From NCBI RefSeq assembly GCF_002078015.1, contig NZ_LWBP01000078.1, positions 1-64,000 on the forward strand: 64,000 nucleotides of DNA, given 5' to 3'. The notes beneath the pieces were generated by a model. That model worked only from the letters and a program-made list of their open reading frames with translations, did not search any database and had not been told where the DNA came from. Positions within the stretch are counted from its first letter, which is position 1, and each line of letters starts with the position of its first letter. This stretch comes from Niastella populi (lineage in GTDB: Bacteria > Bacteroidota > Bacteroidia > Chitinophagales > Chitinophagaceae). Of the stretch, positions 15,164-47,364 are shown piece by piece. The translations under genes and the position numbers were made by a program.

Positions 15164-15710
15164 AAATACCGGCGACGGAATTTATGATGATAATATTATT
15201 ACGTGAGCCAGGCTGTTTTCAGAGAATTTCAGGACTGCAGCATGTTCTGCATGTTCTCAAGACACATTGATTAATGATTGTTTTCAGGAAAATCAGGGTT
15301 TAGGCGGCGCAACCAAAGAAGATTAAAACCCATCCGTTAGTGTTAGTCAGGCCACATTCTATCCACTGCCAAACAAATATAACAATTATTTTAAATATTC
15401 ATAAGGATGGGAATTTTTAAATAGTGCAGTTGAGAGAATTATTGCTTTTTCCGTAAAGGGAAGCAATTAGTAAATGTGCCAATTAGCTAATGTGCAGATG
15501 TGCTAATTGAATACAGCTTTTTAGAATGCATTCGCATACGCGTTACTTTATTAAATACCTCAGGTATGTAAATAGTTATACTAACTATGCGTTGCCGCCC
15601 AATCGTCGAAATATCACACTAACTATTCGTTCCTACTTTATTCGTATTCCACACTATCACATCGACTCTCTTGTATTTGTATTGCATTATCGAATTATCA
15701 CATTATCAAA
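15164..15710. other. Long AT-rich spacer with degenerate repeats
   Basis: The spacer lies upstream of the Crp-like gene. It holds two patches of a degenerate TTAGCTAAT/ATTATCAC-type repeat, at about 15470-15511 and 15667-15731. The second patch continues into the 3' end of the gene at 15711-16013. Open frames within it appear to be chance. Confidence 0.5.
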
Positions 15711-15731
15711 TTAGCTAATTGGCAAATTAGC
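15667..15731. repeat. Degenerate 8-nt repeat tract (ATTATC / TTAGCTAA family)
   Basis: Words such as ATTATCAC, ATTATCAA, ATTAGCTAA and ATTGGCAAATTAG follow one another with about 8-9 nt periodicity. The same word family returns at 15470-15511, 25441-25481, 33361-33402 and 38881-38920. Here it overlaps the stop codon region of the neighbouring gene. Confidence 0.7.
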
Positions 15732-16013
15732 CATCGTATCCGCCAGCATCTTGAACGCCGCCTTTTCTTCTATGGTTGCATTTCCCAACATTGCCGGACA
15801 AACGGAAATACCTGTCGATGGGTCATACCTCAACACGGCGATACCGGCGCCGAAATAAAATTGCCAGCAGATCGTATTGTCCTGCTGTTCCTTATTACAA
15901 AACGAAATGCCTATCTCATGCCTAAGCCAGTCTGCCGTGCTATAGAAAGTAGATGACTCGCATTGCGGAGCCAATACAACCTCTGGATATCCATTTTTGG
16001 TTTGTAATATCAT
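15711..16013 (-). CDS. Hypothetical protein
   Basis: The 100-residue protein starts at a clear ATG (MILQTKNGYPEVVLAP). It contains four cysteines and an aromatic-rich core (WLRHEIGISF, ICWQFYFGAG). No family is recognised. Its last codons (Ala-Asn-Leu-Pro-Ile-Ser) are encoded by the degenerate repeat TTAGCTAATTGGCAAATTAG, so the natural C-terminus may have been altered by repeat insertion. It has no signal peptide and is monocistronic. Confidence 0.55.
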   Translation of the reverse strand: MILQTKNGYPEVVLAPQCESSTFYSTADWLRHEIGISFCNKEQQDNTICWQFYFGAGIAVLRYDPSTGISVCPAMLGNATIEEKAAFKMLADTMANLPIS

Positions 16014-16745
16014 AAAGAAATTTTTAACAGCTACTGAAGGGTGAATTTCGCAGGATATCTGAGTGGAAGGATGAACGTTGCATTAAGATATGTTAATTCC
16101 ACATCACAAACCATGACGATGGTCATAGTTTTTACTTATCACCAATTAGTTGATCTGGGTTTAGTTTTATATACATGGTTTATCGGGAACATGAAATCAA
16201 CAGCTGATCCGATGCATAAATAAATGCTGCATTTTCGCTCAGCAGGAAAACACGGTTTAGCTTCAATCACCGGCAAAAATCCCCTGCAATGTGCGCCACC
16301 AAACGGTTTCAGCAATTGACATTGATCAAAATAATTTCACAAACTGTCACACTGCTGGTACATATTTATTTGTAGTTCGTATATTAGTATCAGTTCGGTC
16401 GGGTGATGAGTTATATGTTTCACCCGATGTAAATTGGTATTTCAAGTATATGTTTGGCTTCCGGTTTAAGTATAGCCGGAAATTTATTTTGGCATCAAAG
16501 GCACAAAGAACATTCTTATCCTCTGTAGTTTTTTGTGCGGCGATAGATCCGGCAGTTTCTGTCCGGATCTATTTTTTTATAAAAAAACTACTTCAGTTGT
16601 CCGCCACTGTTTTATTCACCTGCACATCGATGTCAGGCTATCAATATCTGTCTGCATCACCTGCCTGTAAATTATAACGATCTGGTATTTGTTTGAACGG
16701 CCCTGAAATCATCAGCGCAGCAGCTGCACAGAGGAATAATGGTAG
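16014..16745. other. Intergenic region with an orphan terminator
   Basis: No open frame here has family resemblance. The region contains a strong plus-strand terminator at 16543-16578 with no protein gene upstream of it on that strand, which suggests a short untranslated transcript. It ends at the 41-bp hairpin array. Confidence 0.4.
16543..16578 (+). terminator. Orphan intrinsic terminator
   Basis: A perfect 10-bp stem ATAGATCCGG/CCGGATCTAT with a 10-nt loop is followed by a run of T on the plus strand. The nearest upstream gene (15711-16013) is on the other strand, so any transcript ending here must start in the spacer. Confidence 0.65.
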
Positions 16746-17018
16746 AAATCTGTCAGCGCGGTGTTCGCGCTGACAACTAAAGGTCGAAATCTGTTAGCGC
16801 GATACCAAAATCTGTCAGCGCAATGTTCGCGCTGACAACTAAAGGTCGAAATCTGTCAGCGCAATGTTCGCGCTGACAACTAAAGGTCGAAATCTGTTAG
16901 CGCGATGCCAAAATCTGTCAGCGCGGTGTTCGCGCTGACAACTAAAGGTCGAAATCTGTCAGCGCGATGTTCGCGCTGACAACTAAAGGTTGAAATCTGT
17001 CAGCGCGGCAGCTGCGCA
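16746..17018. repeat. Tandem array of 41-bp hairpin units
   Basis: Five near-identical 41-bp units begin AAATCTGTCAGCGC, contain the inverted arms TGTCAGCGCG and CGCGCTGACA around a 5-nt loop, and end ACAACTAAAGGTCG. Two are separated by 20-22-nt short forms (AAATCTGTTAGCGCGATxCC) and a partial unit closes the array. Differences are concentrated in the loop-proximal bases. There are no unique spacers, so this is not a CRISPR array. Confidence 0.9.
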
Positions 17019-17114
17019 AACAGCTAACGCACCGCTGCAAACAGAAAATGTATCGGTGCAAATAGATATTATACCGCGTCAACAGAAAACCCTGCCAAAA
17101 GAAACACTCTCAAA

Positions 17115-17316
17115 CAATGATGAACCGCGAACTGAACAACTGAACAACTGAACAACTGAATAACTGTATTTCCCCAAACTGCCCCCTATTCTCCGGTAGC
17201 CGAAAACCATGAACTGAGAACTGAGAACAATGAACTATGAACTGTGAACTATGAACTATGAACTGTGAACTGTGAACTGTGAACTGTGAACTATGAACTA
17301 TGAACTGTGAACTAAA
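17115..17316. repeat. Degenerate 7-9-nt repeat tracts (AACTGAAC / GAACTATGAACTGT families)
   Basis: The left part repeats ACTGAACA (9-nt spacing). The right part (from about 17208) repeats TGAACTA, TGAACTG and TGAGAAC with strict 7-nt periodicity for over 100 bp. Each unit differs by one base from its neighbours. The reverse complement of the same words appears at 28274-28340 and 29866-29925. Confidence 0.85.
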
Positions 17317-17490
17317 AAGGGAATATTTTCTCAAAAAGGGAATAAACACTATGTAGAAACAACATCTATTTACTTGTACATCAACCAGTTAAAAAACTGG
17401 CAAGGGTATTGCCTTAGGAAACCCGCAAAAAACCCTTATTTCCCGACTGTATCCTATTATGAAAACCGTAATCCCAGTACCTAACCCGTT

Positions 17491-19812
17491 ATGAAAACAG
17501 CTCTTTGCACAAAACCCCGCAGGGCATTGTATGCCCTGTTTGCAACATTATTACTTACCCAGGCCGCATCGGCCCAATGGTCGAACCTTAACAGCGGCAC
17601 AGGCGAAAACCTTGGCGGCGTTCACTTTGAAGACGCCAATACCGGCTGGATCGCAGGCGGCGATGGCAGAATTAGAAAAACTACCAATGGCGGCGCCAAC
17701 TGGACCACCCAGGGTGCCGGCTTAACCAACCAGCAATTAAACAGCGTATTCTTTGTAAATACAAATGACGGCTACATAGTTGGCGACAATGGTGTTATTC
17801 TCAGAACCACCAATGGGACCAACTGGAGCGTTCAAACCGTTGGCGGCAACGACTACCAGAGTTGCTTCTTTGTTGATGCCACTACCGGCTGGGCCGTTGG
17901 CCAGAACGGTACCATTCGCAAAACCACCAATGGCACTACCTGGAACGCTCAAACCAGTGGCACCACTGAACGCCTGTACGATGTGAAATTTGTTTCCAAC
18001 CTTACCGGCTGGGCAGTAGGCGCCAATGGCGTTATTCGAAAAACCACCGATGGCGGCAGCAACTGGAACGGTCAAACCAGCGGCACCGGTCAGGACCTCA
18101 ATGGTTGTTTTTTCCTGAACGCCAGTACCGGCTGGGCCGTGGGCGACAATGGCGTTGTTCTGAAAACTACCAATGGCGGCAGCAACTGGACGGCCCAAAC
18201 CACCAACACCGCTACCGACTTCAACTGCGTTTTTTTCACCAACCCCAATACCGGTTACGCAGCCGGCCAGGGCGGTGAAATATATACCACCATCAATGGC
18301 GGCGCTACCTGGGGTTTACAAACATCCCCCACCAACCAAATCCTATATGGCATCTTCTTCGCAAACTTCAATACCGGTTATGCGGTAGGTAACAATGGTA
18401 CATTGATAAAAACTTCCAATTCCGGCAGCTACCTCTGGTCTGAACAGAACAGCGGCACTGCCCAGGACATGAATGATATCTTCTTTACCAGTAACACTAT
18501 TGGCTGGATCGCAGGTGATAATGGTATCATTCGAAAAACCACCAATGGCGGCAATAGCTGGACCGGCTTAACCAGCGGCACCACCCAGGACCTGCGCAGT
18601 ATTCACTTTGCCGATGCCAATACCGGCTGGGTGGCTGGCGACAATGGCGTAATTCGAAAATCAACCGATGGCGGCGCCACCTGGACGGCCCAAACCAGCG
18701 GCGTTACGCAAACGCTGCGCAGCATACATTTCAATGACGTTAATACCGGCTGGGCAGTAGGATCAAATGGGAATATCGTAAGCACCACCAATGGCGGCAG
18801 TAACTGGACCGAACAAACAAGCGGCACAGGAAATGACCTCGAAGATGTTCAGTTTATCAACGCAACCACCGGCTGGGTAGTTGGTGAGAACGGCGCCATT
18901 CGAAAAAGTACTGATGGCGGTATAACCTGGACCGCCCAAACCAGCGGCACCACCCAGGACCTGTATGGGGTTTATTTCTTAGACGCCAATACCGGTTGGG
19001 CAGTTGGTAATAATGGCGTTATTCGCAAAACCACCAACGGCGGCGCTACCTGGACGGCACAAACAAGCGGTACCGGCCAGCGCCTGAACGAAGTGGTATT
19101 CACCACGGCCATCAACGGCTGGGCCGTAGGCGATAATGGCACCATCTTATATACCGAAGATGGCGGCGCCAACTGGACAGACCAAACCAGCAACAACAAC
19201 GACGATATCAACAGCGTATACTTCGTGAATAACATGTATGGCTGGTCTATTGGAAATGACGGTACGTTACAAACATATATTTCGGTTACGCTTCCGGCCA
19301 GTTTTGCTTCCTTTGATGCAAACAGCACCGATTGCAGCATTGCCCGTTTGCAATGGCAAACCGCCGGTGATGCCAGCCACCACAGATTCGAAATCCTGTG
19401 GTCAACCGATGGCAGCCACTGGAAAACAGTTGGCACGGTGAACGCAACAGCTGCTGCTGCTTATTCGTATACATATAATGGTTTAGTGAAAGGCGCCAAT
19501 TATTTCAGGCTGAAAGAAGTGGCGCCGGATGGTCAGGCCGCTTATTCAAAACTTGTTTCCATTTCAAACACGTGCGGGGTAACCAAAGCGATCTCCTTAT
19601 ATCCCAACCCTACCCGCTCAACCGTAACGGTTCAGTTGTTCAATACAACATTGCTGGGAACACAGGCCCGCCTCGTTAATTTGCAGGGTCATGTGCTGCG
19701 CCAGTTCACCATCAACAATGTAAAAGAAACTATCAATATGACCGGTATGCCTGCAGGTACGTATTTTATTATTACCGCCGGCAAACAGTCGTTCAGGATC
19801 ATAAAACAATAA
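17491..19812 (+). CDS. Secreted 14-repeat beta-propeller protein with T9SS sorting domain
   Basis: The 773-residue protein starts with a signal peptide (to about residue 29, ending TQAASAQW). I count fourteen consecutive repeats of about 41-43 residues with the consensus TGWAVG-NG-I-KTTNGG-NW, the YCF48/HCF136-like (BNR-related) motif. Fourteen repeats would build two seven-bladed propellers. A fibronectin-like module follows (RLQWQTAG and HHRFEILWSTDG). The last about 75 residues, with ISLYPNPTRSTVTVQL, are a type IX secretion C-terminal domain. It is predicted to be exported and attached to the cell surface or released. The ligand is unknown. Confidence 0.9.
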   Translation: MKTALCTKPRRALYALFATLLLTQAASAQWSNLNSGTGENLGGVHFEDANTGWIAGGDGRIRKTTNGGANWTTQGAGLTNQQLNSVFFVNTNDGYIVGDNGVILRTTNGTNWSVQTVGGNDYQSCFFVDATTGWAVGQNGTIRKTTNGTTWNAQTSGTTERLYDVKFVSNLTGWAVGANGVIRKTTDGGSNWNGQTSGTGQDLNGCFFLNASTGWAVGDNGVVLKTTNGGSNWTAQTTNTATDFNCVFFTNPNTGYAAGQGGEIYTTINGGATWGLQTSPTNQILYGIFFANFNTGYAVGNNGTLIKTSNSGSYLWSEQNSGTAQDMNDIFFTSNTIGWIAGDNGIIRKTTNGGNSWTGLTSGTTQDLRSIHFADANTGWVAGDNGVIRKSTDGGATWTAQTSGVTQTLRSIHFNDVNTGWAVGSNGNIVSTTNGGSNWTEQTSGTGNDLEDVQFINATTGWVVGENGAIRKSTDGGITWTAQTSGTTQDLYGVYFLDANTGWAVGNNGVIRKTTNGGATWTAQTSGTGQRLNEVVFTTAINGWAVGDNGTILYTEDGGANWTDQTSNNNDDINSVYFVNNMYGWSIGNDGTLQTYISVTLPASFASFDANSTDCSIARLQWQTAGDASHHRFEILWSTDGSHWKTVGTVNATAAAAYSYTYNGLVKGANYFRLKEVAPDGQAAYSKLVSISNTCGVTKAISLYPNPTRSTVTVQLFNTTLLGTQARLVNLQGHVLRQFTINNVKETINMTGMPAGTYFIITAGKQSFRIIKQ

Positions 19813-19824
19813 GGTTACTATAGC

Positions 19825-19861
19825 AAAAGTGCCACTCGTAAAATGAGTGGCACTTTTTTAT
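19825..19861 (+). terminator. Intrinsic terminator of the propeller gene
   Basis: AAAAGTGCCACTC pairs with GAGTGGCACTTTT around a 7-nt loop, and the T run continues on the plus strand. It lies 13 bp after the stop codon. Confidence 0.85.
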
Positions 19862-19890
19862 TTGTGTGTCTTTTGCGAAAAACGACCTGC

Positions 19891-19927
19891 TTACTTGTTA
19901 ACCCGTCAACCCGTCAACTGATCAAAT
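19891..19927. repeat. Degenerate repeat tract (GTCAACCCGTCAAC family)
   Basis: The words GTTAACCC, GTCAACCC, GTCAACTG and ATCAAATC follow at 8-nt spacing. The same family recurs at 30415-30476. Confidence 0.6.
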
Positions 19928-19932
19928 CCACG

Positions 19933-21223: not shown

Positions 21224-21400
21224 GAAAAGACGCTCAATGCTGAACGCAAAACGCAGAACGCTAAACTCCGCTCCGGCTGGCTATACCAGTTATCTGAAAC
21301 TTCGCAAAAATGCAGCGGGCTAAACACCAATACGGAATGCAGCACATTTGTTGCTTCGCGTTAAGCGTTACGCCTTCAGCGTTAAGCATCAGGCGGTCAC
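21224..21400. repeat. Degenerate repeat tracts (AACGCAAAACGC / GCGTTAAGCGTT family) and spacer
   Basis: Two patches, GAACGCAAAACGCAGAACGC at about 21242-21262 and GCGTTAAGCGTTACGCCTTC at about 21357-21377, are complementary versions of one word family flanking the spacer between divergent genes. The family returns between xdhA and xdhB (42776-42836). Confidence 0.65.
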
Positions 21401-22645: not shown

Positions 22646-23117
22646 AGCTACTATTCAATAAGATATTTTAGACAAACAACCCTGCTTACCGGTTGATAAA
22701 TATCAATGGTAATAACCTGTACTCTGTAATAAAGAAAGGGTTAAACCTTCAGCAGGGATGTAAAATGAACTACACTGGTTTCAGAATCGAACAAATCATT
22801 CCGGTGAAAGACCGGTAAGCCTAAAGCATTCGAAGGGATTGGAAGGCTCAGCAGGCAGAACAATGCTATTCGCGTTTGTATAACATATTGTCTGCTGATT
22901 GCATGCGAAATTAATTTAATAATTGCAACACTAACAAATATGGATGTGTGTAAAGATTGAAAAGCGTTTAATATTTTAACGCGATACATACTTTTATTTA
23001 TTCGCCCCTAAAACGGGCTTGCTTTAAGTCAATAATTGCTAAACTGCTGTAGCGTATGATTAACCGAATTTGCTGCATCCGGCTTCTGGCCCGCAGCTGC
23101 ATTTCCCTTTCAGCTGT
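22646..23117. other. Intergenic region, no supported gene
   Basis: The spacer lies upstream of the receiver gene. An open frame at 22741-22989 has no family resemblance. The GC content is low and nothing else was recognised before the repeat tract begins. Confidence 0.4.
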
Positions 23118-23236
23118 ATTTCGCTTACAGCTTACAGCTTGAAGCTTGCAGCTGTATTTGCCCTTCAGCCTTGTATTTCGCTTACAGCTTACAGCTTACA
23201 GCTTGAAGCTTGAAGCTTACAGCTTACAGCTGCACC
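23118..23236. repeat. Degenerate 7-nt repeat tract (AGCTTAC / AGCTTGA family)
   Basis: The words AGCTTAC, AGCTTGA, AGCTTGC and AGCTGTA alternate at 7-nt spacing, in two blocks separated by GTATTTGCCCTTCAGCC-like sequence. A short relative occurs at 52843-52886. The tract ends 15 bp from the MocR stop codon. Confidence 0.85.
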
Positions 23237-24808: not shown

Positions 24809-25453
24809 ATGGCACCACAACCACACCTGATTCCCAGCCGGTCGGCCAAAAGAGCGCATTACGATAAAGAAACCATCTATCCTATTTTAGACGAGGCGCT
24901 TTTCTGCACCATTAGCTATGTGTTCGACAACAAGCCATTTTCCATTCCTACTGCATTCGTCCGGTATGAGAATAAATTATATATCCATGGTTCCGTAGGC
25001 AGTCATTTTATCTGGGAACTGGAAAAAGGCGTACCGGTTTGTATAAGCGTTACGCTGCTCGATGCCCTGGTGGTTGCCAAATCGGCTTTCTCGCATTCGG
25101 TGAATTACCGGTCGGTAGTGCTTTTTTCAAATGGAGTAAAAATAGATGAAGCGAAATTAAAAGCCGATGTGCTGGAATGGCTTACCAATAAGATCGTACC
25201 TGACAGTTGGGATTACCTGCGCCCCATGAAAGACAATGAGGTTAAAAAAACAACGGTGATCGCTTTTGATATCGATGAAGCCTCGGCCAAGGTGCGCACT
25301 GGAATGCCGAACGATGAAGAGGAGGACAAACCGCTGCCGATATGGTCGGGTATTATTCCCATAGAAACCATTCGCCGCGATCCGCAGCCCGATCTATTGA
25401 GCCAGGAGATCCCGCTGCCGAAACACCTGATGCCGGGAAAGCTAATTAGCTAA
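24809..25453 (+). CDS. PNPOx-like FMN-binding flavoprotein
   Basis: The 214-residue protein has the split-barrel flavin-binding fold of the pyridoxamine-phosphate-oxidase-related (Pyridox_ox_2) family: LDEALFCTISYVFDNKPFSIPTA, IHGSVGSHFIW, VCISVTLLDALVVAKSAFSHS and NYRSVVLFSNG. Members bind FMN or F420 and reduce small substrates. The true activity is unknown. Divergence from the MocR regulator suggests a link to vitamin B6 or amine metabolism. The final residues (Gly-Lys-Leu-Ile-Ser) are encoded by an intergenic repeat tract (25441-25481), so the stop codon may have been supplied by the repeat. Confidence 0.85.
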   Translation: MAPQPHLIPSRSAKRAHYDKETIYPILDEALFCTISYVFDNKPFSIPTAFVRYENKLYIHGSVGSHFIWELEKGVPVCISVTLLDALVVAKSAFSHSVNYRSVVLFSNGVKIDEAKLKADVLEWLTNKIVPDSWDYLRPMKDNEVKKTTVIAFDIDEASAKVRTGMPNDEEEDKPLPIWSGIIPIETIRRDPQPDLLSQEIPLPKHLMPGKLIS

Positions 25454-25481
25454 TGTGATAATTTGATAATGTGATAATGAG
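25441..25481. repeat. Degenerate repeat tract (GCTAATTAGC / GATAATGTGATAAT family)
   Basis: The tract GCTAATTAGCTAATGTGATA continues with AATTTGATAATGTGATAATG at 8-9-nt periodicity. It starts inside the last codons of the PNPOx-like gene. Confidence 0.8.
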
Positions 25482-26754: not shown

Positions 26755-26847
26755 GCAATTGCTGATTTAGAGATTTTGGATTTTATGATGTTCGGCATTA
26801 AACCAAATCTCAAAATCCCGAAATCCCTAAATCAGCAATTTTACCTT
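26755..26847. repeat. Inverted pair of GATTTNGG-type degenerate repeats
   Basis: AATTGCTGATTTAGAGATTT at the left is mirrored by AAATCCCTAAATCAGCAATT at the right. The interior also consists of ATTTTGG/CCCGAAAT words. Together they could form a large hairpin and terminate the minus-strand gene ending at 26883. Confidence 0.7.
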
Positions 26848-28265: not shown

Positions 28266-28273
28266 AGTTATAG

Positions 28274-28432
28274 TTTTAGTTATTCAGTTATTCAGTTATT
28301 CAGTTATTCAGTTGTTCAGTTGTTCAGTTGTTCAGTTCGAAACTCGCTATTGATTGCTATAGAACTCGGGCGCATCGGCGCCCTTAAAAAGTTAACTCAA
28401 TAACTGAACAACTGAACAACTTACAAACTTTG
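28274..28432. repeat. Degenerate 8-9-nt repeat tract (TTCAGTTAT / TTCAGTTGT family)
   Basis: TTATTCAG and TTGTTCAG alternate from about 28280 to 28338. The complementary words ACTGAACA and AATAACTG return at 28396-28426 just before the next gene's stop. It belongs to the same family as 17115-17172. Confidence 0.85.
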
Positions 28433-28433
28433 A

Positions 28434-29831
28434 TTATTGCTTAACAAACCTTCTTATGAAGCTTTTATCTTTATTGATCACCATTAAGGTATAAACCCCC
28501 GCTCCCAGCTTCGACACGTTTATGGTATTCGTAGTATATCGGCTTTGAAGCACTTCGCGGCCTGTTACATCGAGCACCCTGATCGTTGCACCCGACAATG
28601 GCAGGGTGGTATTGAAACGTAATTCTTCCAATACCGGGTTGGGATAAATAAGCAACTGTTTATCCGTTGCGGTTTCAGCAATGGTAGCAGCTCTTGCAGC
28701 TGCACCGGCGGTAGTTATTCTTACAGAAGTAGCCTTATCGTTCCAACCATTGGCAACCAGGCAGGAATTGTCGGCGGTAAGTGTAAGCGTGGTGCCGGTG
28801 AAATTATCGTCCCAGTATAATTGGATCTGGTAACCGCTGTTCACTTTTACCGATGAAATATCATCGTTCAACACCCCGAGGTTTTGTAACTGTCCCAGGG
28901 TATAATTGCCAACACCCAATGCCGTTACATAACCGCCATAGTTACAATGTTTGTAAACATTAACCACACCGGTGCCATAGGTGAAAGGAAAATCATTCCG
29001 CGCCTGGTTGAACTGGGTTTCAAAAGTGCTCGTCCAGCCGAAAGCCGCCGTAGCCAGCGGTTTAAGGCTTACACCCGCAGCGCCGCTCCAGAAATGAATG
29101 AATTCGCCCCAGTTCATATCGCGGCTATAGTTGTTGCCGCTTTTTGGAAAATACTGCGCGAGGTAAGTAAAGAAGCGGTTCAGCACCTGTGTACCGCCGT
29201 AGTTATTATAAATGGGATAGAACCAGTCGCGGAACCAGTGTGTGCCGGCCACCGGGAAATTATCGGTGCTGTTTTGCATCTGGTTATACCAGCGGGTAGC
29301 TTCACCTGTTTTGCCCAACTTCAGATACACATCATAGATAAAGATCTCGGCCCATTTGCTATCGCCCCAGATGGGAAAGGCCGGCGAACCATGAATACCT
29401 TTGCTGGCGCCTTCTACAATATGCGCCACTTCATGCGTAGTGATGTCGAGGTCGCCGCCGGTACCGCTTGTCCAGGGACCCGGGCCCACATCGATCACGT
29501 TGCGGTTATCGTGACTGGCATCGAAATAAGTGGAAGGATGCCCGCCGCTGTATTTATTGGTATGAAAAATGGCAAACAGGTGGGGATCGTTGCCAAAGTT
29601 GCCATACACGCTTTTTGTATAACGCCATACATCGCCAAGGAATGTATTGGGCCAGGTAACGGAATTACTGACGGCATTGTCGTAATATACCGCCACGTCG
29701 TTATCATAAAATTTCCGGCTAAGCAACTGGTTATGCTCAAACCAATGCTCCTGCCAGGTGGCGGGCGGTGTTTGTGCCAATGCCGTTTGTACAATAAAAC
29801 CCAGGAATAAAGTGTAAATGACAGATTTCAT
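28434..29831 (-). CDS. Secreted zinc metallopeptidase-like protein with beta-gamma-crystallin and T9SS domains
   Basis: The 465-residue protein has a signal peptide (1-19, ending ALAQ). The catalytic-type domain contains the zinc motif HEVAH at residues 133-137 followed by IVEGAS. A downstream EIFIYDVYLKLG helix could supply a third ligand, as in gluzincin-like peptidases. A beta-gamma-crystallin domain (about 295-380; VYKHCNYGGYVTALGVG, VLNDDISSVKV and LYWDDNFTG) precedes a C-terminal sorting domain (LLIYPNPVLEELRF to FIRRFVKQ). It is followed on the same strand by a gene with an equivalent tail. Confidence 0.82.
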   Translation of the reverse strand: MKSVIYTLFLGFIVQTALAQTPPATWQEHWFEHNQLLSRKFYDNDVAVYYDNAVSNSVTWPNTFLGDVWRYTKSVYGNFGNDPHLFAIFHTNKYSGGHPSTYFDASHDNRNVIDVGPGPWTSGTGGDLDITTHEVAHIVEGASKGIHGSPAFPIWGDSKWAEIFIYDVYLKLGKTGEATRWYNQMQNSTDNFPVAGTHWFRDWFYPIYNNYGGTQVLNRFFTYLAQYFPKSGNNYSRDMNWGEFIHFWSGAAGVSLKPLATAAFGWTSTFETQFNQARNDFPFTYGTGVVNVYKHCNYGGYVTALGVGNYTLGQLQNLGVLNDDISSVKVNSGYQIQLYWDDNFTGTTLTLTADNSCLVANGWNDKATSVRITTAGAAARAATIAETATDKQLLIYPNPVLEELRFNTTLPLSGATIRVLDVTGREVLQSRYTTNTINVSKLGAGVYTLMVINKDKSFIRRFVKQ

Positions 29832-29865
29832 AGTTTCAGTAGTTTAATAGTTATGGAGAATCGTT

Positions 29866-29925
29866 AGTTCACAGTTCATAGTTCACAGTTCATAGTTCAT
29901 AGTTCATAGTTCAGTTTACAGTTCT
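29866..29925. repeat. Degenerate 7-nt repeat tract (CAGTTCATAGTTCA family)
   Basis: CAGTTCA and TAGTTCA alternate with 7-nt periodicity over about 60 bp. It is the reverse complement of the TGAACTA/TGAACTG tract at 17208-17316. Confidence 0.85.
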
Positions 29926-30414: not shown

Positions 30415-30476
30415 CCCGCCAACCAGTTAACTGGTTAACAAGTCAACAAGTCAACTCGTCAACAAGTCAACTCCTC
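30415..30476. repeat. Degenerate 8-nt repeat tract (AAGTCAAC family)
   Basis: The words CCAGTTAA, CTGGTTAA, CAAGTCAA and CTCGTCAA recur with 8-nt spacing. A different family (ACATTC words) follows at 30519-30553 directly against the preA stop. Confidence 0.85.
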
Positions 30477-30553
30477 CTGTATTCCCTTTTTCTTTTCTCA
30501 TTTCCCTGTATTCACTTCAACATTGAAAATTCTACATTCAACATTCGATATTC

Positions 30554-31826: not shown

Positions 31827-31975
31827 TTTGTTTGTGGTTTGTGGTTTGTGGTTTGTGGTTTGTGGTTTGTGGTTGTTTATTTCAAGGTTCGCGACTGTTT
31901 AAATCCTGCTATTTGTAGTTACGATGCACAGAAAAAACAATAAACAACAAACCATAAACCATAAACTGCCTTTTA
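31827..31975. repeat. Degenerate 7-nt repeat tracts (TTTGTGG / ATAAACC family) between preA and preT
   Basis: The word TTTGTGG is repeated about six times in perfect tandem at 31833-31875. The complementary words ATAAACA, CAAACCATAAACC recur at 31938-31970, so inverted copies bracket the middle of the spacer inside an operon. The family recurs at 34275-34405 and 47330-47364. Confidence 0.9.
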
Positions 31976-33360: not shown

Positions 33361-33402
33361 ATTCCATTATCATATTATCACATTATCGAATTATCACATT
33401 AA
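33361..33402. repeat. Degenerate 8-nt repeat tract (ATTATCAC family)
   Basis: The words CATTATCA, TATTATCA, CATTATCG and ATTATCAC recur with 8-9-nt spacing in the short gap between the ureidopropionase stop and the preT start, again inside the same operon. Confidence 0.8.
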
Positions 33403-34274: not shown

Positions 34275-34405
34275 AATGCAGTTTATTGTTTATAGTTTAT
34301 TGTTTATAGTTCTTCAGTTTGAGAAGCGTTTATTGTCTTTGTACCTCCGGTTCTTTCAGCAATCCCGCTACAGGATAACCATACACCAAAAACAATAAAC
34401 CACAA
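34275..34405. repeat. Degenerate 7-nt repeat tracts (GTTTATTGTTTATA family)
   Basis: GTTTATT and GTTTATA alternate at 34279-34310. The complementary words AACAATAAACCACAAACC occur at 34389-34407, directly before the dihydropyrimidinase stop. As in the preA-preT spacer, the two tracts are in inverted orientation. Confidence 0.85.
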
Positions 34406-34410
34406 ACCCT

Positions 34411-37353: not shown

Positions 37354-37387
37354 AGGTGTGCCACACTTTAAACGTGTGGCACACCTT
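37354..37387. promoter_or_regulatory. Strong hairpin between aminotransferase and permease genes
   Basis: AGGTGTGCCACAC pairs with GTGTGGCACACCT (13 bp) around a 7-nt loop, 7 bp after the aminotransferase stop. There is no convincing T run on the minus strand. It could be a weak terminator, a processing site or a 3'-end stabiliser that separates expression of the two halves of the pyrimidine block. Confidence 0.6.
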
Positions 37388-38746: not shown

Positions 38747-38880
38747 ATGAGAATTGATTGAAAATTTGGAATGGGGGGATTGGGGGCGATCGTGAAAACG
38801 TGAAACGGCAAACGTGAAAAGCGCTATCATCCTGTTATGCGAGATGCATGAAACGGTAGCGAACCTGCACACTCAGCAAC

Positions 38881-38920
38881 CCATTATCACATTAGCATAT
38901 TAGCAAATTATCACATTGAC
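38881..38920. repeat. Degenerate repeat tract (ATTATCACATTAGC family)
   Basis: CCATTATCACATTAGCATAT is followed by TAGCAAATTATCACATTGAC with 8-9-nt periodicity, ending at the stop codon of the semialdehyde dehydrogenase gene. Confidence 0.8.
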
Positions 38921-41380: not shown

Positions 41381-42775
41381 TTGATCAAATTCATTCTCAA
41401 TAATAAAAACATTGCTACCGGCCTGCCGCCCGGGATGGTGCTGCTCGATTTTGTGCGGTATCACCAACATTTAATGGGCAGTAAGGTGGGCTGCAATGAA
41501 GGCGACTGCGGCGCCTGCACCATGCTTACAGGTGAGCTGAAAAATAATGAACTGCAATACCGTTCGCTAACCAGTTGTCTTACCCCGTTGGGCAATGTAC
41601 ATGGTAAACATGTGGTCACCGTTGAAGGATTGAATATGGAAGGGCTGAATCCCATTCAGCAGGCCATGTATGATGAGTCGGCCACGCAATGCGGATTCTG
41701 CACGCCCGGTTTTGTGGTTTCGCTCGCCGGATTTTGTTTAAGCGCCAAAACCGCCACGGCACAAAACGCCACTGCACATATCGATGGAAACATTTGCCGC
41801 TGCACCGGGTATAAATCAATTGAAAGAGCAGCAGCGAAAGTAGCGGAACTGATGCAGGGCAGACAACAGGAGGAACCAACGGCATTTGCTGCGGAGAAAA
41901 AGATCCTGCCCGAATGGTTTGCCGGCATCAAACAGCGGTTATATGCATTGGTTACGGAATTGAACGGACAGCTTCATTCATCATCCGCTACAGAATGGGT
42001 GGGCGGCGGCACCGATGTATATGTGCAAAAACACGAGGTGCTGCAGGATGCAGCTATCAGGTTCCTGCTCGATGACGAAGGCCTGAAAGGCATCTCGCAA
42101 AAAGGGAACCGCTGTATCATCGGCGCTTCGGCCACAGTAACCGAACTGGGTGAATCACCGGTAATGCAGCAATACTTTCCGCGGTTGCCGGAATATATCA
42201 GGCTGGTTTCTTCTACCCCTATCCGTAATATTGCTACAGTGGGCGGCAACCTCATCAACGCCTCCCCCATCGGCGACCTCACTATTTTCCTGCTGGCGCT
42301 CGATGCTACACTGCTTTTCAGTAATGGCGAACAAAAACGTGAACTTCCGTTAAAGCAATTGTACAAAGGATATAAAACGCTCGATAAACAACCCGGCGAA
42401 CAACTGGAATCGCTTTCATTTGAGTTGCCGGGCAAGAACACTTTTTTTCATTTTGAAAAGGTAAGCAAACGCACCCACCTCGATATTGCCAGTGTGAACT
42501 CGGCTATTTGTATGACCATGCAGGGCGATACCATACAGGATGTTCGCATTTCGGCCGGGGGCGTTGCGCCCATTCCCAAATTGCTTGATAAAACAAATGC
42601 CTTTCTGAGAGGAAAAACAGTAAATGACCCAACGATAACAGCAGCCATCGCCATTGCGCAAACGGATATTTCACCCATCAGCGATGCGCGGGGAACGGCA
42701 GACTATAAACGATTGCTGTTAGGCCAGTTGATCAAAGCTCATTTTTTTACTGCAGTTGAAACAGTCTTTCGTTAA
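41381..42775 (+). CDS. xdhA: Xanthine dehydrogenase small subunit (2Fe-2S and FAD domains)
   Basis: The 464-residue XdhA relays electrons from the molybdenum subunit to NAD. The first 2Fe-2S cluster is CNEGDCGACTML (about residues 40-50). The second is CGFCTPGFVVSL with CRCTGYKSI (about 105-150). The FAD domain shows IRNIATVGGNLINASPIGDL. A TTG start at 41381 is chosen because an in-frame stop (TAG at 41375) precedes it and the protein then begins with the typical MIKFILNNKNI. The xdhB and xdhC genes follow on the same strand. Confidence 0.93.
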   Translation: MIKFILNNKNIATGLPPGMVLLDFVRYHQHLMGSKVGCNEGDCGACTMLTGELKNNELQYRSLTSCLTPLGNVHGKHVVTVEGLNMEGLNPIQQAMYDESATQCGFCTPGFVVSLAGFCLSAKTATAQNATAHIDGNICRCTGYKSIERAAAKVAELMQGRQQEEPTAFAAEKKILPEWFAGIKQRLYALVTELNGQLHSSSATEWVGGGTDVYVQKHEVLQDAAIRFLLDDEGLKGISQKGNRCIIGASATVTELGESPVMQQYFPRLPEYIRLVSSTPIRNIATVGGNLINASPIGDLTIFLLALDATLLFSNGEQKRELPLKQLYKGYKTLDKQPGEQLESLSFELPGKNTFFHFEKVSKRTHLDIASVNSAICMTMQGDTIQDVRISAGGVAPIPKLLDKTNAFLRGKTVNDPTITAAIAIAQTDISPISDARGTADYKRLLLGQLIKAHFFTAVETVFR

Positions 42776-42836
42776 GCGTTCGGCGTAACGCGATTTGCAT
42801 TAAGCGTTTTGCGTTCGGCGTTCAGCATTAAATGTT
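42776..42836. repeat. Degenerate repeat tract (GCGTTCGGCGTAACGC family) between xdhA and xdhB
   Basis: AAGCGTTCGGCGTAACGC is followed by GCATTAAGCGTTTTGCGTTC and GGCGTTCAGCATTAAATG. GCGTT-type words are repeated with about 7-9-nt spacing, and the tract fills the whole gap between the two subunit genes. It belongs to the same family as 21224-21400. Confidence 0.85.
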
Positions 42837-42842
42837 CTACGT

Positions 42843-45152
42843 ATGAAAAATATCGATGCATATACACACGTGCGGGGCGAATCGGTTTATCTCGATGATA
42901 TTCCCCTGATCCGCGGCACCCTGTTCGGCGCCTCGTTTGGCTCACCGGTGGCGCATGGAGTTATCAGCGCGCTCGATACCAGTGACGCAGAAGCCCTTCC
43001 CGGTGTAGTACGCATTTTCACGTATAAAGATATTACCGGCGAGAACCAGATCGGCGGCATTGTTCCCGATGAACCGTTGCTGGCCGGTGATGAGGTACAT
43101 TTCTGTGGCATGCCTGTCGCTTTTGTCGTTGCCGATTCTGTAGATGCCGCCCGGGCTGCCGTGAAAAAAATTAAAGTAACAATTGAGCCCTTACCCGTCA
43201 TCACCGACCCGCGCGAGGCGCAGGTACAGGGAGAACTCATTATTCCGCCGCGCACCTTTCAATTGGGCAATACATCGGATAGCTGGCCGCAATGCACGCA
43301 TGTATTCGAAGGCCGGGCCGATACCAACGGACAGGAACATCTGTATATTGAAACGCAGGGCGCCTATGCGGTTCCACAGGAGCATAACAGCATAAAAATA
43401 TATTCATCCACCCAGGGACCTACAGCGGTACAACGGGCCGTAAGCCGGGTGCTGGGTTTGCCCATGCATTTGGTTGAGGTGGAAGTGAACAGGCTCGGCG
43501 GCGGTTTTGGCGGCAAGGAAGACCAGGCAAATACCTGGGCCGCACTATGCGCACTGGCTGCCCATCATTTAAAACGGCCGGTGAAATATTCTTTACACCG
43601 CATGGAAGATATGGCCATGACGGGTAAACGCCATCCTTATTCAGCCGATTTCAAAATCGGGTTGAACGATGAGCTGAAGATAATGGCATACGAAGTAACG
43701 TTCTACCAAAATGCCGGCGCTGCTGCCGATCTGTCGCCGGCCGTTTTGGAACGTACATTATTTCATTGCACCAATTCTTATTTCATTCCCAATGTAAAAG
43801 CCACTGCTTACAGTTGCAGAACGCATTTACCGCCCAATACGGCTTTCCGCGGATTCGGCGGTCCACAGGGAATGTTCATGATAGAAGCGGCTATTGCCAA
43901 AGCCGCTGAAGCGCTGGGAATACCCGCTTCCGTTATACAGGAAAAAAACCTGCTGCAAACGGGCGATGAATTTCCTTACGGACAAAAAGCGCAAAGTGAA
44001 GCGCCCGAATGCTGGCATAAGGCCAGCGCATTATACAACCTCGCACAAATGCATAAGGAGGTGGAATCCTTCAACGCTTCCGGTAAATGGCGCAAAAAAG
44101 GCCTGGCCTGTATGCCCATTTGTTTTGGTATTTCATTTACAAAAACCCTGATGAACCAGGCGCGGTCGCTGGTGCATGTGTATACAGACGGAAGTGTAGG
44201 CATCACTACCGGCGCAGTTGAAATGGGCCAGGGGGTGAATACAAAGATCCTGCAGGTAGCCGCACAGGTGTTCTCCATTCAACCCGGTAAAATAAAGATC
44301 CATACTACCAATACTTTTAAGATCGCCAACACCTCTCCTTCTGCGGCCAGCGCCACCGCCGATCTCAATGGCAAGGCCACCCTGATGGCCTGCAACGCCA
44401 TTGCCGGCAGGCTGAAGAAAATGATAGCGGAAGAACTGAATACCGATGTAGCTGCTATTACGTTAAAAGATGAATACGTTTGGGTAAACGGGGAAAGAAC
44501 CGATCGTGACTGGAAATCGCTGGTAATGGCCGGACATATAAAACGCATTGGCTTATCGGAGCATGCCCATTACGCTACACCCGAAATACATTTCGATGCC
44601 ACAAAAGAAAAAGGTCATCCCTTTGCCTATCATGTTTATGGCACCGCCATTGTTGGCGTAACGGTTGATTGTATCCGTGGCACTTATACCGTTGACACGG
44701 TAAAAGTAGTGCATGATTTTGGCGCCAGTATGAATATGGCGGTAGACCTGGGACAAATTGAAGGCGGCATTGTACAGGGCATTGGGTGGATGACCATGGA
44801 AGAAGTGGTGTATGACGACAAAGGAAAACTGCGCTCCAATGCGCTTTCAACATATAAGGTGCCTGATATTTATTCAGTGCCGGAAGAGATAGCTGTCGAT
44901 TGTCTGCAAACACCGAACGACAACCTCGCCATCTTCCGGTCGAAAGCCGTTGGCGAACCGCCATTGATGTATGGCATTGGCGCTTATTTTGCATTACGTA
45001 ATGCGGTACGCGCATTCAATGCTACAGGAGAATTTCCGTTCTCCGCCCCTATGACACCCGAAAAAGTATTGATGGCGTTATACGAAAAACAAAAGGAAGG
45101 AGCTATTGAAACCCATGAAGAAACAATTAACCATCTGGCAGTTGATAAATAA
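42843..45152 (+). CDS. xdhB: Xanthine dehydrogenase large, molybdopterin-binding subunit
   Basis: The 769-residue subunit hydroxylates hypoxanthine and xanthine to uric acid at its molybdopterin centre. Family signatures are RLGGGFGGKEDQANTWAAL (cofactor loop), FRGFGGPQGMFMIEAAI, TGAVEMGQGVNTKILQVAA, NTSPSAASATADLNG, and the catalytic-glutamate region KAVGEPPLMYGIGAYFALR. The N-terminal part (HVRGESVYLDDIP and ASFGSPVAHG) is the a/b hammerhead. Its 3' end overlaps xdhC by 38 bp. The length fits the XdhB family. Confidence 0.94.
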   Translation: MKNIDAYTHVRGESVYLDDIPLIRGTLFGASFGSPVAHGVISALDTSDAEALPGVVRIFTYKDITGENQIGGIVPDEPLLAGDEVHFCGMPVAFVVADSVDAARAAVKKIKVTIEPLPVITDPREAQVQGELIIPPRTFQLGNTSDSWPQCTHVFEGRADTNGQEHLYIETQGAYAVPQEHNSIKIYSSTQGPTAVQRAVSRVLGLPMHLVEVEVNRLGGGFGGKEDQANTWAALCALAAHHLKRPVKYSLHRMEDMAMTGKRHPYSADFKIGLNDELKIMAYEVTFYQNAGAAADLSPAVLERTLFHCTNSYFIPNVKATAYSCRTHLPPNTAFRGFGGPQGMFMIEAAIAKAAEALGIPASVIQEKNLLQTGDEFPYGQKAQSEAPECWHKASALYNLAQMHKEVESFNASGKWRKKGLACMPICFGISFTKTLMNQARSLVHVYTDGSVGITTGAVEMGQGVNTKILQVAAQVFSIQPGKIKIHTTNTFKIANTSPSAASATADLNGKATLMACNAIAGRLKKMIAEELNTDVAAITLKDEYVWVNGERTDRDWKSLVMAGHIKRIGLSEHAHYATPEIHFDATKEKGHPFAYHVYGTAIVGVTVDCIRGTYTVDTVKVVHDFGASMNMAVDLGQIEGGIVQGIGWMTMEEVVYDDKGKLRSNALSTYKVPDIYSVPEEIAVDCLQTPNDNLAIFRSKAVGEPPLMYGIGAYFALRNAVRAFNATGEFPFSAPMTPEKVLMALYEKQKEGAIETHEETINHLAVDK

Positions 45153-46122
45153 AAGCCTGCAGCAACAGGTACCGGTGATGTTGTTGTATGTGCTGCAGAG
45201 CGAAGGAAGCAGTCCGGGCCGGCAGGGATTTTTTATGGCGGTGAATGCAGCCGGCGACACCGAAGGATCGATCGGCGGCGGTATAATGGAGCACAAATTT
45301 GTAGAAATGGCAAAAGAGCAGTTAAAGGAAAACGTGCACCTGGGCTTTTCCGATCTGCGAAATGCGTATACGGTGGAACCGCAGATCACGATCAAAAAAC
45401 AATTTCATAATAAATCTGCTGCCGGCAATCAAAGCGGTATGATCTGCTCGGGTGAACAAACAATGCTGCTTTACCGCGTTATGCCCCAGGATACTCCTGT
45501 AATACAAAAGATCATTAAAAGCCTTGAACAACATCAAAACGGCACATTGCAGTTATCTTCTTCCGGAATACAATTCAATGCGAGCGTTCCTGCCGGCAAT
45601 TTCTATTTTTCCATGACCTCGGAAACAGACTGGGTGTATCGCGAAAAGACTGGTTTTATCAATCACCTGCATGTTATCGGGGCCGGGCATTGTGCACTGG
45701 CGCTTTGCCGTATGATGCAGGACATGGATTTCTATGTTCATTTGTATGACGATCGTTCAAGCCTGAAAACTTTTATCGAGAACCGGTATGCCCATCAGAA
45801 AAAAGTGATCGATGACTATGAAGCGCTGGCCTCCCTGGTGCCGGAAGGCGATAACCAGTATGTGGTGGTGATGACGGTAGGTTACCGAACCGATGACATG
45901 GCGCTGCGGGCGCTTTGGAAAAAGAAATTCAGGTACCTGGGCTTGTTGGGAAGTAAAAGTAAGATCGAGAAAATGTTCACTGATTACCGGAAGGAGGAGA
46001 TACCGGAGACGCTATTACAAAATATTCATGCGCCGGTAGGAATTGCCATCCATAGTGAAACGCCGGAAGAAATTGCCATTAGCATTGCGGCGGAGATCAT
46101 TCGGGTGAAGAATAGCGTTTGA
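45115..46122 (+). CDS. xdhC: XdhC-family molybdenum cofactor insertion protein
   Basis: From the ATG at 45115 the protein has 335 residues. XdhC proteins bind sulphurated molybdenum cofactor and load it into XdhB. The N-terminal XdhC/CoxI motif EGSSPGRQGFFMAVNAAGD and EGSIGGGIMEHK are clear, and the C-terminal Rossmann domain shows LHVIGAGHCALALCRMM and YLGLLGSKSKIEKMF. A good Shine-Dalgarno-like GGAAGGAG lies inside the end of xdhB, and the ATG overlaps that gene by 38 bp. It is convergent with the small gene at 46097-46282 and overlaps it by 26 bp. Confidence 0.92.
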   Translation: MKKQLTIWQLINKSLQQQVPVMLLYVLQSEGSSPGRQGFFMAVNAAGDTEGSIGGGIMEHKFVEMAKEQLKENVHLGFSDLRNAYTVEPQITIKKQFHNKSAAGNQSGMICSGEQTMLLYRVMPQDTPVIQKIIKSLEQHQNGTLQLSSSGIQFNASVPAGNFYFSMTSETDWVYREKTGFINHLHVIGAGHCALALCRMMQDMDFYVHLYDDRSSLKTFIENRYAHQKKVIDDYEALASLVPEGDNQYVVVMTVGYRTDDMALRALWKKKFRYLGLLGSKSKIEKMFTDYRKEEIPETLLQNIHAPVGIAIHSETPEEIAISIAAEIIRVKNSV

Positions 46123-46282
46123 GTATCTCATCCAGATTTTTAATTTTAGACAAATGCTCGTTTGCCTCTTCTATTTTACGAGCAACCGCGCCTGTAGGTT
46201 TCGCAGGCTTCAAATTATCATCAACAGTAAATGTAAACTCTCTTTTAAACAGCTTACTGTAAAATTTCAACTTCTTTTTCAT
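46097..46282 (-). CDS. Small basic protein downstream of DUF6934-like gene
   Basis: The 61-residue, lysine-rich protein starts MKKKLKFYSKLFKREFTF. Its ATG overlaps the TGA of the DUF6934-like gene, the usual sign of translational coupling. No family is recognised. The second half (KIEEANEHLSKIKNLDEIL) is probably helical. Because the pair forms a tight two-gene unit set between catabolic operons, a toxin-antitoxin-like or regulatory module is possible but unproven. Confidence 0.6.
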   Translation of the reverse strand: MKKKLKFYSKLFKREFTFTVDDNLKPAKPTGAVARKIEEANEHLSKIKNLDEILKRYSSPE

Positions 46283-46742
46283 ATTTCAAATTTAATCAAT
46301 TTTCTCTTAACTAAAAACGCCTTGACATTCAACTCCTTATGAAATGGAACAAACTCCCAGTTTCCATTTAGGTCAGCTAATATATCAAATGTCTCAGACA
46401 GCTCCTCCAAATGCAAACTAATCGCCATCCTATACAACCGGGTCCTATGCTCTGTACTACCTGCAAAGAATATATACCGTTCAGGAAATCTATTTGTATA
46501 TCTATCAACGACATTTACGATAGTAGCTAAAATCTTATTCCTATCACCATTATTACTAATGGATAGATCATCAAGATTTCCATATTCATTAATATCTCCA
46601 AATGCCAGGTTAAAAATATAAGGTATTAATGTAGGTGTAAACAACACCTGCTTAGTAATATTGCCATTATGCCTTTACTGATAAACTCAAATGAGCTAAA
46701 GTCTGCACCAGTATTCACATTCTCGTATACCTCATACTTCAT
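46279..46742 (-). pseudogene. DUF6934-family gene with a frameshift near its 5' end
   Basis: The 3' frame (46647 to 46279) reads IFNLAFGDINEYGNLDDLSISNNGDRNKILATI and FFAGSTEHRTRLYRMAI, then a LVKRKLI end, all typical of DUF6934. The expected N-terminus (MKYEVYENVNTGADFSSFEF, then ISKG) is present in another frame from an ATG at 46742. The frames join at about 46672, where one missing base after GGC restores NGNITKQVLFTPTL. The 3' frame alone lacks the first about 30 residues. It is either a natural lesion or a sequence error. The function of the family is unknown. Confidence 0.75.
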
Positions 46743-46970
46743 CCCTCAAAAATATAGGATACCCCTAACTGTTCCCCAATACCCTCAGCCTATTTCAATA
46801 TTTCTTGATCATAAACAAATCAACACATCACATCAACCAGTCCCATTTTAAACTCACCCCACTAAAATTATTTACCCGCTGCACAAAACCGTATCGCTTT
46901 TTTGCTTAACTTAAATAATTGCCTGCCATTCGTATTTCCATTAATACATACCTGAATTTCATATTTATCT

Positions 46971-47273
46971 ATGCATCTGACACCAAGAGAATCGGAAAAA
47001 CTATTACTGTTTTTAGCCGGCGAACTGGCAGAAAAACGAAGGGCGCGTGGATTGAAATTGAATTACCCCGAAGCGATTGCGCTTATCAGCAGCCACCTGC
47101 AGGAAGCAGCCCGTGACGGCAGATCGGTTGCCGAACTCATGCAATACGGCGCAACTATCTTAACCCGCAACGATGTGATGGAAGGCGTGCCTGAAATGAT
47201 CCCCGAGATCCAGATCGAAGCCACTTTTCCCGATGGCACCAAACTCGTAACGGTGCATGATCCTATCAGGTGA
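46971..47273 (+). CDS. ureA: Urease gamma subunit
   Basis: The 100-residue small subunit of urease begins [23 protein letters not shown] and contains [21 protein letters not shown] and [22 protein letters not shown], the canonical gamma pattern and length. It heads the ureABCEFGD run. A 93-bp gap carrying a repeat tract separates it from ureB, in contrast to the overlapping junctions of most of the downstream genes. Confidence 0.97.
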
Positions 47274-47329
47274 TCTGGCCATTATAAATTTCATTATGGG
47301 TGCCATTAATAGCGAGCCTTGAAACGGAA

Positions 47330-47364
47330 CAACCAGAAACAAAAAACAATAAACCATAAACTGC
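47330..47364. repeat. Degenerate repeat tract (AACAATAAACCATAAAC family) between ureA and ureB
   Basis: AACAACCAGAAACAAAAAAC and AATAAACCATAAACTGCC share the 7-nt words of the tracts at 31938-31970 and 34389-34407. The tract ends 2 bp from the ureB start codon and so occupies the place of its ribosome-binding region. Confidence 0.75.

Follow-up and report, generated by a model that had tools for sequence, protein, structure and literature searches.

Degenerate word tracts between genes of Niastella populi: candidate arms of interchangeable hairpin elements at gene 3′ ends

The gaps between genes in a 64,000-nucleotide stretch of the Niastella populi genome (contig NZ_LWBP01000078.1, positions 1 to 64,000; hereafter, the window) contain tracts of degenerate 7–9-nt words repeated in tandem. 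The window carries a pyrimidine-catabolism operon, recognized by Pfam matches and synteny, and the positions of its tracts are collected in Table 1. A first-pass annotation of the sequence had described intergenic tracts from eight word groups, all of which were indeed present. Scanning with Tandem Repeats Finder (TRF; score of at least 40, periods 5–12, arrays merged) yielded 18 merged arrays, 16 of them intergenic, with period 7 in eight arrays, 8 in seven, and 11 in one. Gaps held 1.54 arrays per kb and coding sequence 0.037; Markov-shuffled gap sequence gave no array at all. The right-most tract reported earlier as intergenic (47337–47361) falls within a called open reading frame (ORF, 47319–47738). 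Genes were called by our own longest-ORF heuristic, and start codons are therefore especially uncertain.

The word tracts occur genome-wide, far above chance. On a 600-kb contig (C1) of the window’s genome (G000), 100 of 128 arrays were intergenic, as were 39 of 49 in 220 kb of a sister species (G005); on a 200-kb contig (C187), the fraction was 12 of 19 and the density lower, at 0.47 per kb. Across the window and 800 kb more of its genome, degenerate tandem words of period 7–9 were 12–41 times denser in gaps than in genes, and 145 of the 736 gaps sampled, roughly one in five, held an array. A single word string, TGAACTATGAACTGTGAACT, matched 414 genomic places with at most two mismatches, whereas its reversed control matched none. 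The tracts have the properties of heptamer-type intergenic simple sequence repeats, namely tandem units of 5–11 nt, mostly 7, in excess outside genes.

To define word families, we clustered 227 intergenic arrays (TRF score of at least 34, period 6–10) from 864 kb of the window’s genome and 220 kb of G005 by 4-mer content, with an arbitrary cut-off. This gave 31 clusters, of which 18, with 207 arrays in all, had four or more members. A single period accounted for at least 75% of the arrays in 17 of these 18 families, and 15 contained arrays from both species. The first-pass view of a dispersed, non-coding class of element in this lineage is thus borne out, since families recur over the genome and the genus. 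Its expectation that each family occupies two or more distant gaps held genome-wide and failed in part within the window, where AGCTTAC, GCGTTAAGC, and GATTT words each appeared in one gap of the TRF list. Most letters of a family were either near-constant or split over two or three bases, as in GTTT[A49/G46]T[G50/T30/A19] (per cent). In family 1, the constant GTTT/AAAC keeps the arms paired. Given enough units, the letter patterns were alike in both species, for example ATTA[T/G]C[A/G][C/A]. The TGAACT family was found in seven of nine sister genomes and, with one match each, in two of 49 genomes outside the genus. Among the places listed, its seventh letter was commonly C in G005, T in G006 and G007, and A or G in the window’s genome, a distribution biased by the query pattern. 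One TGAACT array of about 385 bp (G000 C156:114533–114917) proceeds in exact 14-bp steps, unlike the short degenerate arrays.

Within the genus, the arrays were placed and oriented with respect to gene ends. Distances of at most 10 nt were seen for 95 of 274 array-to-3′-end pairs and 17 of 180 array-to-5′-end pairs. Arrays were held by 30.8% of convergent gaps, 20.4% and 18.1% of codirectional gaps (++ and −−, respectively), and 10.0% of divergent gaps. The sense-strand G+T content of arrays was 0.585 near 3′ ends (112 arrays) and 0.356 near 5′ ends (33 arrays, which are hence A/C-rich there), compared with a background of 0.485 and 0.475 in gaps without arrays. The 36 family-1 units with both neighbors called were similarly distributed: 19 lay in convergent, 15 in codirectional, and two in divergent gaps. 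Repetitive extragenic palindromes (REPs) and bacterial interspersed mosaic elements (BIMEs) are likewise dispersed palindromes that lie at 3′ ends and are scarce in divergent gaps. The earlier suggestion that tracts mark 3′ ends is consistent with this position and polarity as far as gene ends are concerned; their marking of transcript ends is a conjecture.

The first-pass annotation overlooked that tracts are often paired in inverted orientation. An inverted partner (score of at least 12) was present in the same gap for 34.4% of the 227 arrays, as opposed to 3.5% when other array-bearing gaps were searched; for direct partners, the corresponding values were 11.9% and 1.2%. We examined 25 clear inverted pairs with their flanks. 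Twelve lay in convergent gaps, and in eight of these each arm was no more than 10 nt from the adjacent stop codon; 11 of the 12 enclosed 40–66 nt. Folding z-scores were computed with a segment-swap shuffler whose mixing was perhaps incomplete (30 shuffles per junction, 15 per background gap). They averaged −3.8 in convergent gaps with arrays (27/27) and −2.5 in those without (35 of 40 tested), compared with −1.2 and −2.0 in codirectional gaps and −0.5 in divergent gaps without arrays. A word tract is one of several ways to build a gene-end hairpin.

Whole arm-core-arm units are dispersed as well, most clearly in family 1, the best-studied family, where the unit spans about 110 bp. Among the matches listed for a 140-bp query with GTTT arms (C1:351965–352104), copies of about 90–125 bp with 75–88% identity occurred in seven of ten genomes, with scoring limited to 40 candidates in the richest of them. 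In the sequence sampled, 41 distinct matches covered 88 or more positions of the query; 33 of them shared a core motif (..CTCAAAGCGCGGCAGC..) and eight had another core or mixed words. One copy of the window unit at 28266–28433, 89% identical, lies on the same contig, and four longer matches at 76–79% lie elsewhere. When the cores of 23 units were compared, those that were clearly dispersed (families 1, 6, 0, and 14) kept the same arm family, sometimes inverted, and one family-15 core had partial matches only; the sequence compared was gathered partly with family-1 and family-6 units, which favors those families. A single core conserved in all units was sought and rejected: 8-mer enrichment in masked gaps yielded only the modest motifs GAATACAG/CTGTATTC and GTGTGCCACAC. 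Of 454 array ends, 62 had a CTGTATT/AATACA-type motif no more than 18 bp away, versus 269 of 21,562 control 20-mers, mainly in families 0, 5, 7, and 8. At a contig end of the window’s genome (G000 C196:71736–72768), several family-1 hairpin matches stand in a row, some of them about 168 bp apart.

We then compared ten species of the genus at two syntenic blocks, one being the window’s pyrimidine-catabolism operon and the other a stretch of C1 with 13 gaps. In both, gene order was conserved and gap content was not. The PreT–PreA gap, for example, measures 172 bp and carries GTTT words in the window’s genome, measures 2 bp in G004, and extends to 570 bp with other words in G003. Three convergent junctions of the C1 block (g5–g6, g7–g8, and g9–g10) had word tracts in 25 of 30 gap-by-species cells, drawn from five, four, and four families, respectively; of the other five cells, two held an ordinary hairpin (G005 and G008 at g5–g6, by eye) and three were at most 17 bp long. 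All 27 gaps longer than 25 bp at these junctions folded with a z of −2.3 or lower on one strand or both. The divergent control g6–g7, with z between −1.2 and +1.3, was unstructured in nine of ten species, the exception being the window’s genome, which carries a GTGTGCCACAC palindrome there. At g0–g1, AAGT-type words were visible by eye in seven species (arrays were scored by program in two), and a GATTTTGG-type unit was common to G001 and G003, which cluster after midpoint rooting, though with a support of only 0.34. On a ten-species tree of 17 genes, at least 53 parsimony changes were required over 14 tabulated junctions, 13 of which needed at least one. The table covers 14 of 21 junctions (NCS1–HYD, PreA–S2, g1–g2, g2–g3, g10–g11, g11–g12, and g12–g13 were omitted) and assigns families at a low TRF score and a cosine above 0.5. 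The count is only rough because mixed states were counted separately and some tracts visible by eye were scored as lacking an array (such as S2–S1 in G001 and bUP–PreT in G005 and G006). Tracts are thus gained, lost, and swapped between sisters at conserved gene junctions, as the first-pass annotation had proposed checking, and the strict conservation that would have told against a special process is not observed.

Two further observations concern these junctions. At g7–g8, cores of the same family are oppositely oriented in G000 and G004 compared with G002, G003, and G006 (by eye), as if flipped between inverted arms. A palindrome, AGGTGTGCCACAC...GTGTGGCACACCT, occurs both in the window (about 37354–37386) and in the g6–g7 gap of C1 (about 353.5 kb); it was not seen in the sisters compared at either orthologous gap, and its 8-mers are about 6–7-fold enriched in gaps.

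Outside the genus, we sampled 80 of 587 relatives and, after removing three of the genus, were left with 77 loci. All surround the same hydantoinase gene, and the sample is therefore non-random; by title it consists of Bacteroidota, with three entries of Ignavibacteria type and one titled Bifidobacterium. Arrays of 7–9-mers were present in 39 of the 77 loci (95 arrays, 1.26 per kb of gap). Inverted partners were found for 42.1% of these, versus 1.3% in controls, and polarity ran in the same direction as in the genus (G+T of 0.575 near 3′ ends and 0.423 near 5′ ends). Word sharing was modest: 29.5% of the 95 arrays matched an array of the window’s genome at a cosine of at least 0.6 and 7.4% at a cosine of at least 0.8, compared with 15.3% and 1.2% when letters were permuted, while 68% of 50 arrays of the sister G005 did so at the lower threshold. 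A dictionary common to the phylum was accordingly a weak candidate. The design is widespread; the words mostly are not. In 40-kb pieces of eight other genera, scanned at a stricter threshold, G018 had seven arrays, G015 two (period 10), and G035 one; the remaining five had none at that threshold.

Taken together, these sequence comparisons lead us to favor, by a modest measure, the view that the tracts chiefly represent the arms, or else lone halves, of a large, modular class of 3′-end hairpin elements whose families are interchangeable. The class is best read as REP/BIME-like 3′-end hairpins whose stems are heptamer-type word arrays and whose families would be replaced quickly at fixed positions. 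A complete unit would comprise an array of usually two to six degenerate 7–9-nt words, a core of usually about 40–95 nt, and a reverse-complementary array. In this genus, such units border stop codons, chiefly where the flanking genes are convergent or codirectional, and the G/T-rich word strand is sense at 3′ ends. Arm and core are copied together to other loci in either orientation in family 1, and families 0, 6, and 14 each add a single copy of this kind; the route is probably one of transposition or recombination. In sister species, the family at a junction is gained, lost, or replaced (13 of the 14 junctions tabulated), while a foldable structure stays at the three convergent junctions. 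By analogy with what has been proposed for REPs and BIMEs, the RNA hairpin may bound or protect transcript 3′ ends and separate cistrons; many word families would be equivalent in this role, and swaps would be tolerated. Long arrays may change length by two-word steps, as the resemblance of second-neighbor units suggests.

Several results weigh against this interpretation. Most arrays are solitary: 137 of the 227 (about 60%) had no inverted partner even at a score of at least 10. Convergent gaps without arrays also fold, and arrays are therefore not required for a hairpin. The arms of family 1 did not covary at their variable letters in the 39 units parsed from 41 matches; agreement was 0.570 versus 0.599 for arms dealt at random, 1888 of 2000 permutations reached the observed value, and letter-by-letter covariation was rejected. 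Among the cores compared, 11 of 23 had no other match in the sequence searched, and for others the only matches were partial or were to an orthologue or to the core itself. Family 1 lacks the marks of known mobile palindromes: GTAG was found in 3 of 39 units (5.6% in controls) and CGTC in none, so that the GTAG/CGTC foot of a 20–40-bp REP or BIME stem-loop is missing from these units of about 110 bp (this was assessed in family 1). The target-site duplication typical of miniature inverted-repeat transposable elements of DDE insertion sequences was likewise not seen in its units, with a 5-bp duplication at 0 of 39 versus 1.9 expected (10-bp flanks, approximate edges). No mobilizing enzyme could be assigned to the units. 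Finally, outside the genus, arrays lay within 10 nt of called starts (30/77) and of stops (41/103) equally often.

The best placed of the alternatives, which we nevertheless consider unlikely, holds that a tyrosine (HUH) transposase mobilizes the units as palindromes, in the manner of REP-associated tyrosine transposases (RAYTs) and REPINs, and that they lie at 3′ ends because of insertion preference and purifying selection, not because of a function there. The dispersal of whole units in both orientations agrees with it. So does the presence, in each of ten species, of one strong match to Y1_Tnp (IS200-like; about 142 aa and up), accompanied by weaker matches in seven. These loci (L208–L217) apparently share a gene context, as far as gene sizes and the visible sequence show: the upstream neighbor is the same in all ten and the downstream neighbor, which by eye resembles 3-dehydroquinate synthase, in nine, the tenth locus ending at a contig end. 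Word arrays lie directly upstream of Y1_Tnp in nine of the ten species. Such flanking is weak evidence, however, given that arrays are present in roughly a fifth of the gaps. Genomes with Y1_Tnp matches number 45 of 59 and include G011 and G024, whose 40-kb samples had no intergenic array, and the lack of a tag and of a target duplication in family 1 tells against this explanation too. We regard the link between Y1_Tnp and the word units as a lead only.

A second alternative, that the tracts are neutral simple-sequence repeats, would have 7–9-nt slippage duplications degenerate by point mutation and be purged from coding regions. The excess of periods 7–8 and the intergenic bias match the long simple sequence repeats described in PMC4679880, where a slippage preference for 7 nt is credited to Mrazek et al. 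Families also cluster locally, with the same family in 12 of 87 neighboring array-bearing gaps on C1 versus 5.5 when shuffled. The order of units within arrays speaks on both sides. In the 137 of 227 arrays with at least four in-register units, second neighbors were more alike than in permuted order (Hamming distance of 1.215 versus 1.345), which makes two-word expansion probable. Adjacent units, on the other hand, differed more than permuted ones (1.435 versus 1.342, with 0 of 400 permutations higher), the opposite of what fresh slippage would leave; this dissimilarity was seen only in arrays with five units or fewer and was repeated outside the genus (1.519 versus 1.368, 60 arrays). Both effects could be explained by two-word expansion combined with the loss or non-survival of perfect neighbors. 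Avoidance between adjacent units as the sole rule was weakened as a candidate by the second-neighbor similarity, which implies an ABAB order, and by the absence of an adjacent-unit effect above five units. Slippage would not, moreover, reuse 18 words across the genome and its sister, place reverse complements in one gap, give a polarity relative to the gene strand, copy cores, or confine variation to fixed letters. With a common vocabulary, inverted partners, copied units, and dissimilar neighbors, an origin by local slippage alone is doubtful, and we give neutrality little credence. Nor was a single generating process for several unrelated families, suggested in the first-pass annotation, borne out.

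The least probable alternative is that the tracts are protein- or ribosome-binding arrays, each family being the operator or RNA-binding array of a regulator with the constant letters as contacts: their constant and variable letters do resemble a degenerate binding motif, tracts outside the genus often adjoin called starts, and family 6 (AACTGAAT/AACTGAAC) contains in tandem, 12 nt from a start codon in the window, the TAACTGA for which a binding role upstream of start codons has been proposed (PMC4679880), but families replace one another at the same junction and, in the genus, most gene-end arrays lie at 3′ ends.

In filamentous cyanobacteria, the short tandemly repeated repetitive (STRR) heptanucleotides make up families of intergenic 7-nt tandem repeats that are degenerate, and are likened to the present tracts by description only. 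Heptamer-type intergenic repeats published from other bacteria had also been overlooked in the first-pass annotation. MacGregor (2015) described TAACTGA and other heptamer direct repeats, intergenic and near start or stop codons; five Bacteroidetes are included, some with other heptamers (PMC4679880). As here, these are short intergenic 7-nt direct repeats, and TAACTGA recurs in our family 6. In that paper, related heptamers are rarely repeated and no particular RNA structure is predicted, whereas the tracts described here form 18 degenerate families with periods of 7, 8, and 9, are often inverted arms, and are swapped between species. The GGGNATC heptamers of Xanthomonas and Nostoc (Rehm 2015) follow the same placement rule as our arrays: according to PMC4692102, they lie in sense orientation within 50 bp after stops and in antisense within 50 bp before starts, are under-represented in divergent gaps, and occur singly or as inverted pairs. 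They consist, however, of one G-rich, quadruplex-forming word that keeps its place in 83% of cases between two species, while many words and rapid family replacement are seen here. REPs (Di Nocera 2013) are, according to PMC3733652, GTAG- or CGTC-tagged dispersed extragenic palindromes of mainly convergent and unidirectional gaps, thought to act in RNA, which in the two species studied lie less than 20 bp from 3′ ends and sometimes provide the stop codon. They share the placement rule of our units without the word structure; they measure 20–40 bp with a GTAG/CGTC foot (PMC3733652), whereas our units are longer, untagged in family 1, and have stems of tandem words from many families. In the literature searched, which covers subscription journals little, we found no earlier account of word-built hairpins in this group of Bacteroidota. 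The novelty lies in how these features combine, in how many families there are, and in the evidence of swaps; the workings would be those of known elements.

A broader generalization is conceivable, and we offer it tentatively: the word vocabulary of Bacteroidota may be a set of interchangeable 3′-end hairpin blocks, in which selection keeps the hairpin and is nearly blind to the words, whole word cassettes are exchanged from a dispersed pool more quickly than neighboring genes diverge, and small differences between neighboring units guard short stems from collapse by slippage. If the hairpin interpretation is true, the tracts would be swappable gene-end hairpins rather than random spacer, and heptamer repeats and REP-like palindromes, which have been described apart, would be joined. 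Family swaps are natural replacement experiments, with the same genes and the same position but an unrelated stem, and the roles of structure and sequence at bacterial 3′ ends are therefore directly testable.

Table 1 Word tracts of the window, with strand and context (TRF, Tandem Repeats Finder)
Position	Strand	Feature	Context
15686–15729	−	8-mer array, ATTATCAC = GATAATGT, genome family 0	
17130–17166	+	8-mer array AACTGAAC, family 6	
17205–17314	+	7-mer array TGAACTA/TGAACTG	Upstream of YCF48-repeat protein gene 17491–19812
19900–19918	+	Short 8-mer array AACCCGTC, family 2	
21243–21387	.	Two 7-mer arrays, AACGCAA and GCGTTAA words, one divergent gap	Weak inverted match, score 9
23093–23231	.	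7-mer arrays GCTTACA/GCTTGAA, family 5, spacers of CTGTATTT type	Pair direct, not inverted
25443–25479	+	8-mer array TAATGTGA, family 0	3′ end of gene 24809–25453
26768–26833	.	Inverted pair GATTTAGAGATTTTGG ... AAATCCCTAAATC, family 9	Left arm by eye, right arm by TRF
28278–28421	.	Arm-core-arm hairpin, arms AGTTATTC / AACTGAAC, family 6	89%-identical copy at G000 C78:114571–114721
29826–29924	−	7-mer array AGTTCAC/AGTTCAT, TGAACT group	Upstream of gene 28434–29831
30420–30473	+	8/16-mer array GTCAACAAGTCAACTC, family 2	Gap after PreA-like gene
30509–30553	+	7-mer array TTCAACA, family 8	At stop codon of PreA-like gene
31830–31966	.	Arm-core-arm hairpin, arms GTTTGTG / AAACAAT-AAACCAT, family 1	Between PreT-like and PreA-like genes
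33365–33401	−	8-mer array CATTATCA, family 0	3′ end of carbon-nitrogen hydrolase (beta-ureidopropionase-like) gene
34280–34408	.	Arm-core-arm hairpin, arms AGTTTAT / AACCATA, family 1	Same family and core in orthologous gap of sister G003
38791–38820	+	7/8-mer array CGTGAAAA, family 15	CGTGAAA/CGGCAAA group by eye
38883–38910	−	8-mer array ATTAGCAA, family 0	After aldehyde-dehydrogenase stop codon
47337–47361	+	AAACAAT run named in the first-pass annotation	Inside called ORF

Tandem hairpin repeats of 41, 62, and 103 bp (AAATCTGTCAGCGCGATGTTCGCGCTGACAACTAAAGGTCG) occupy positions 16737–17007 of the window, in a repeat style unlike that of the neighboring 7–8-mers. An Rfam scan of the window returned four matches, none at a word tract. 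One of them, to 5_ureB_sRNA (86.7 bits, 47887–48185, minus strand), lies antisense within a urease alpha-like gene and may reflect mere coding conservation.

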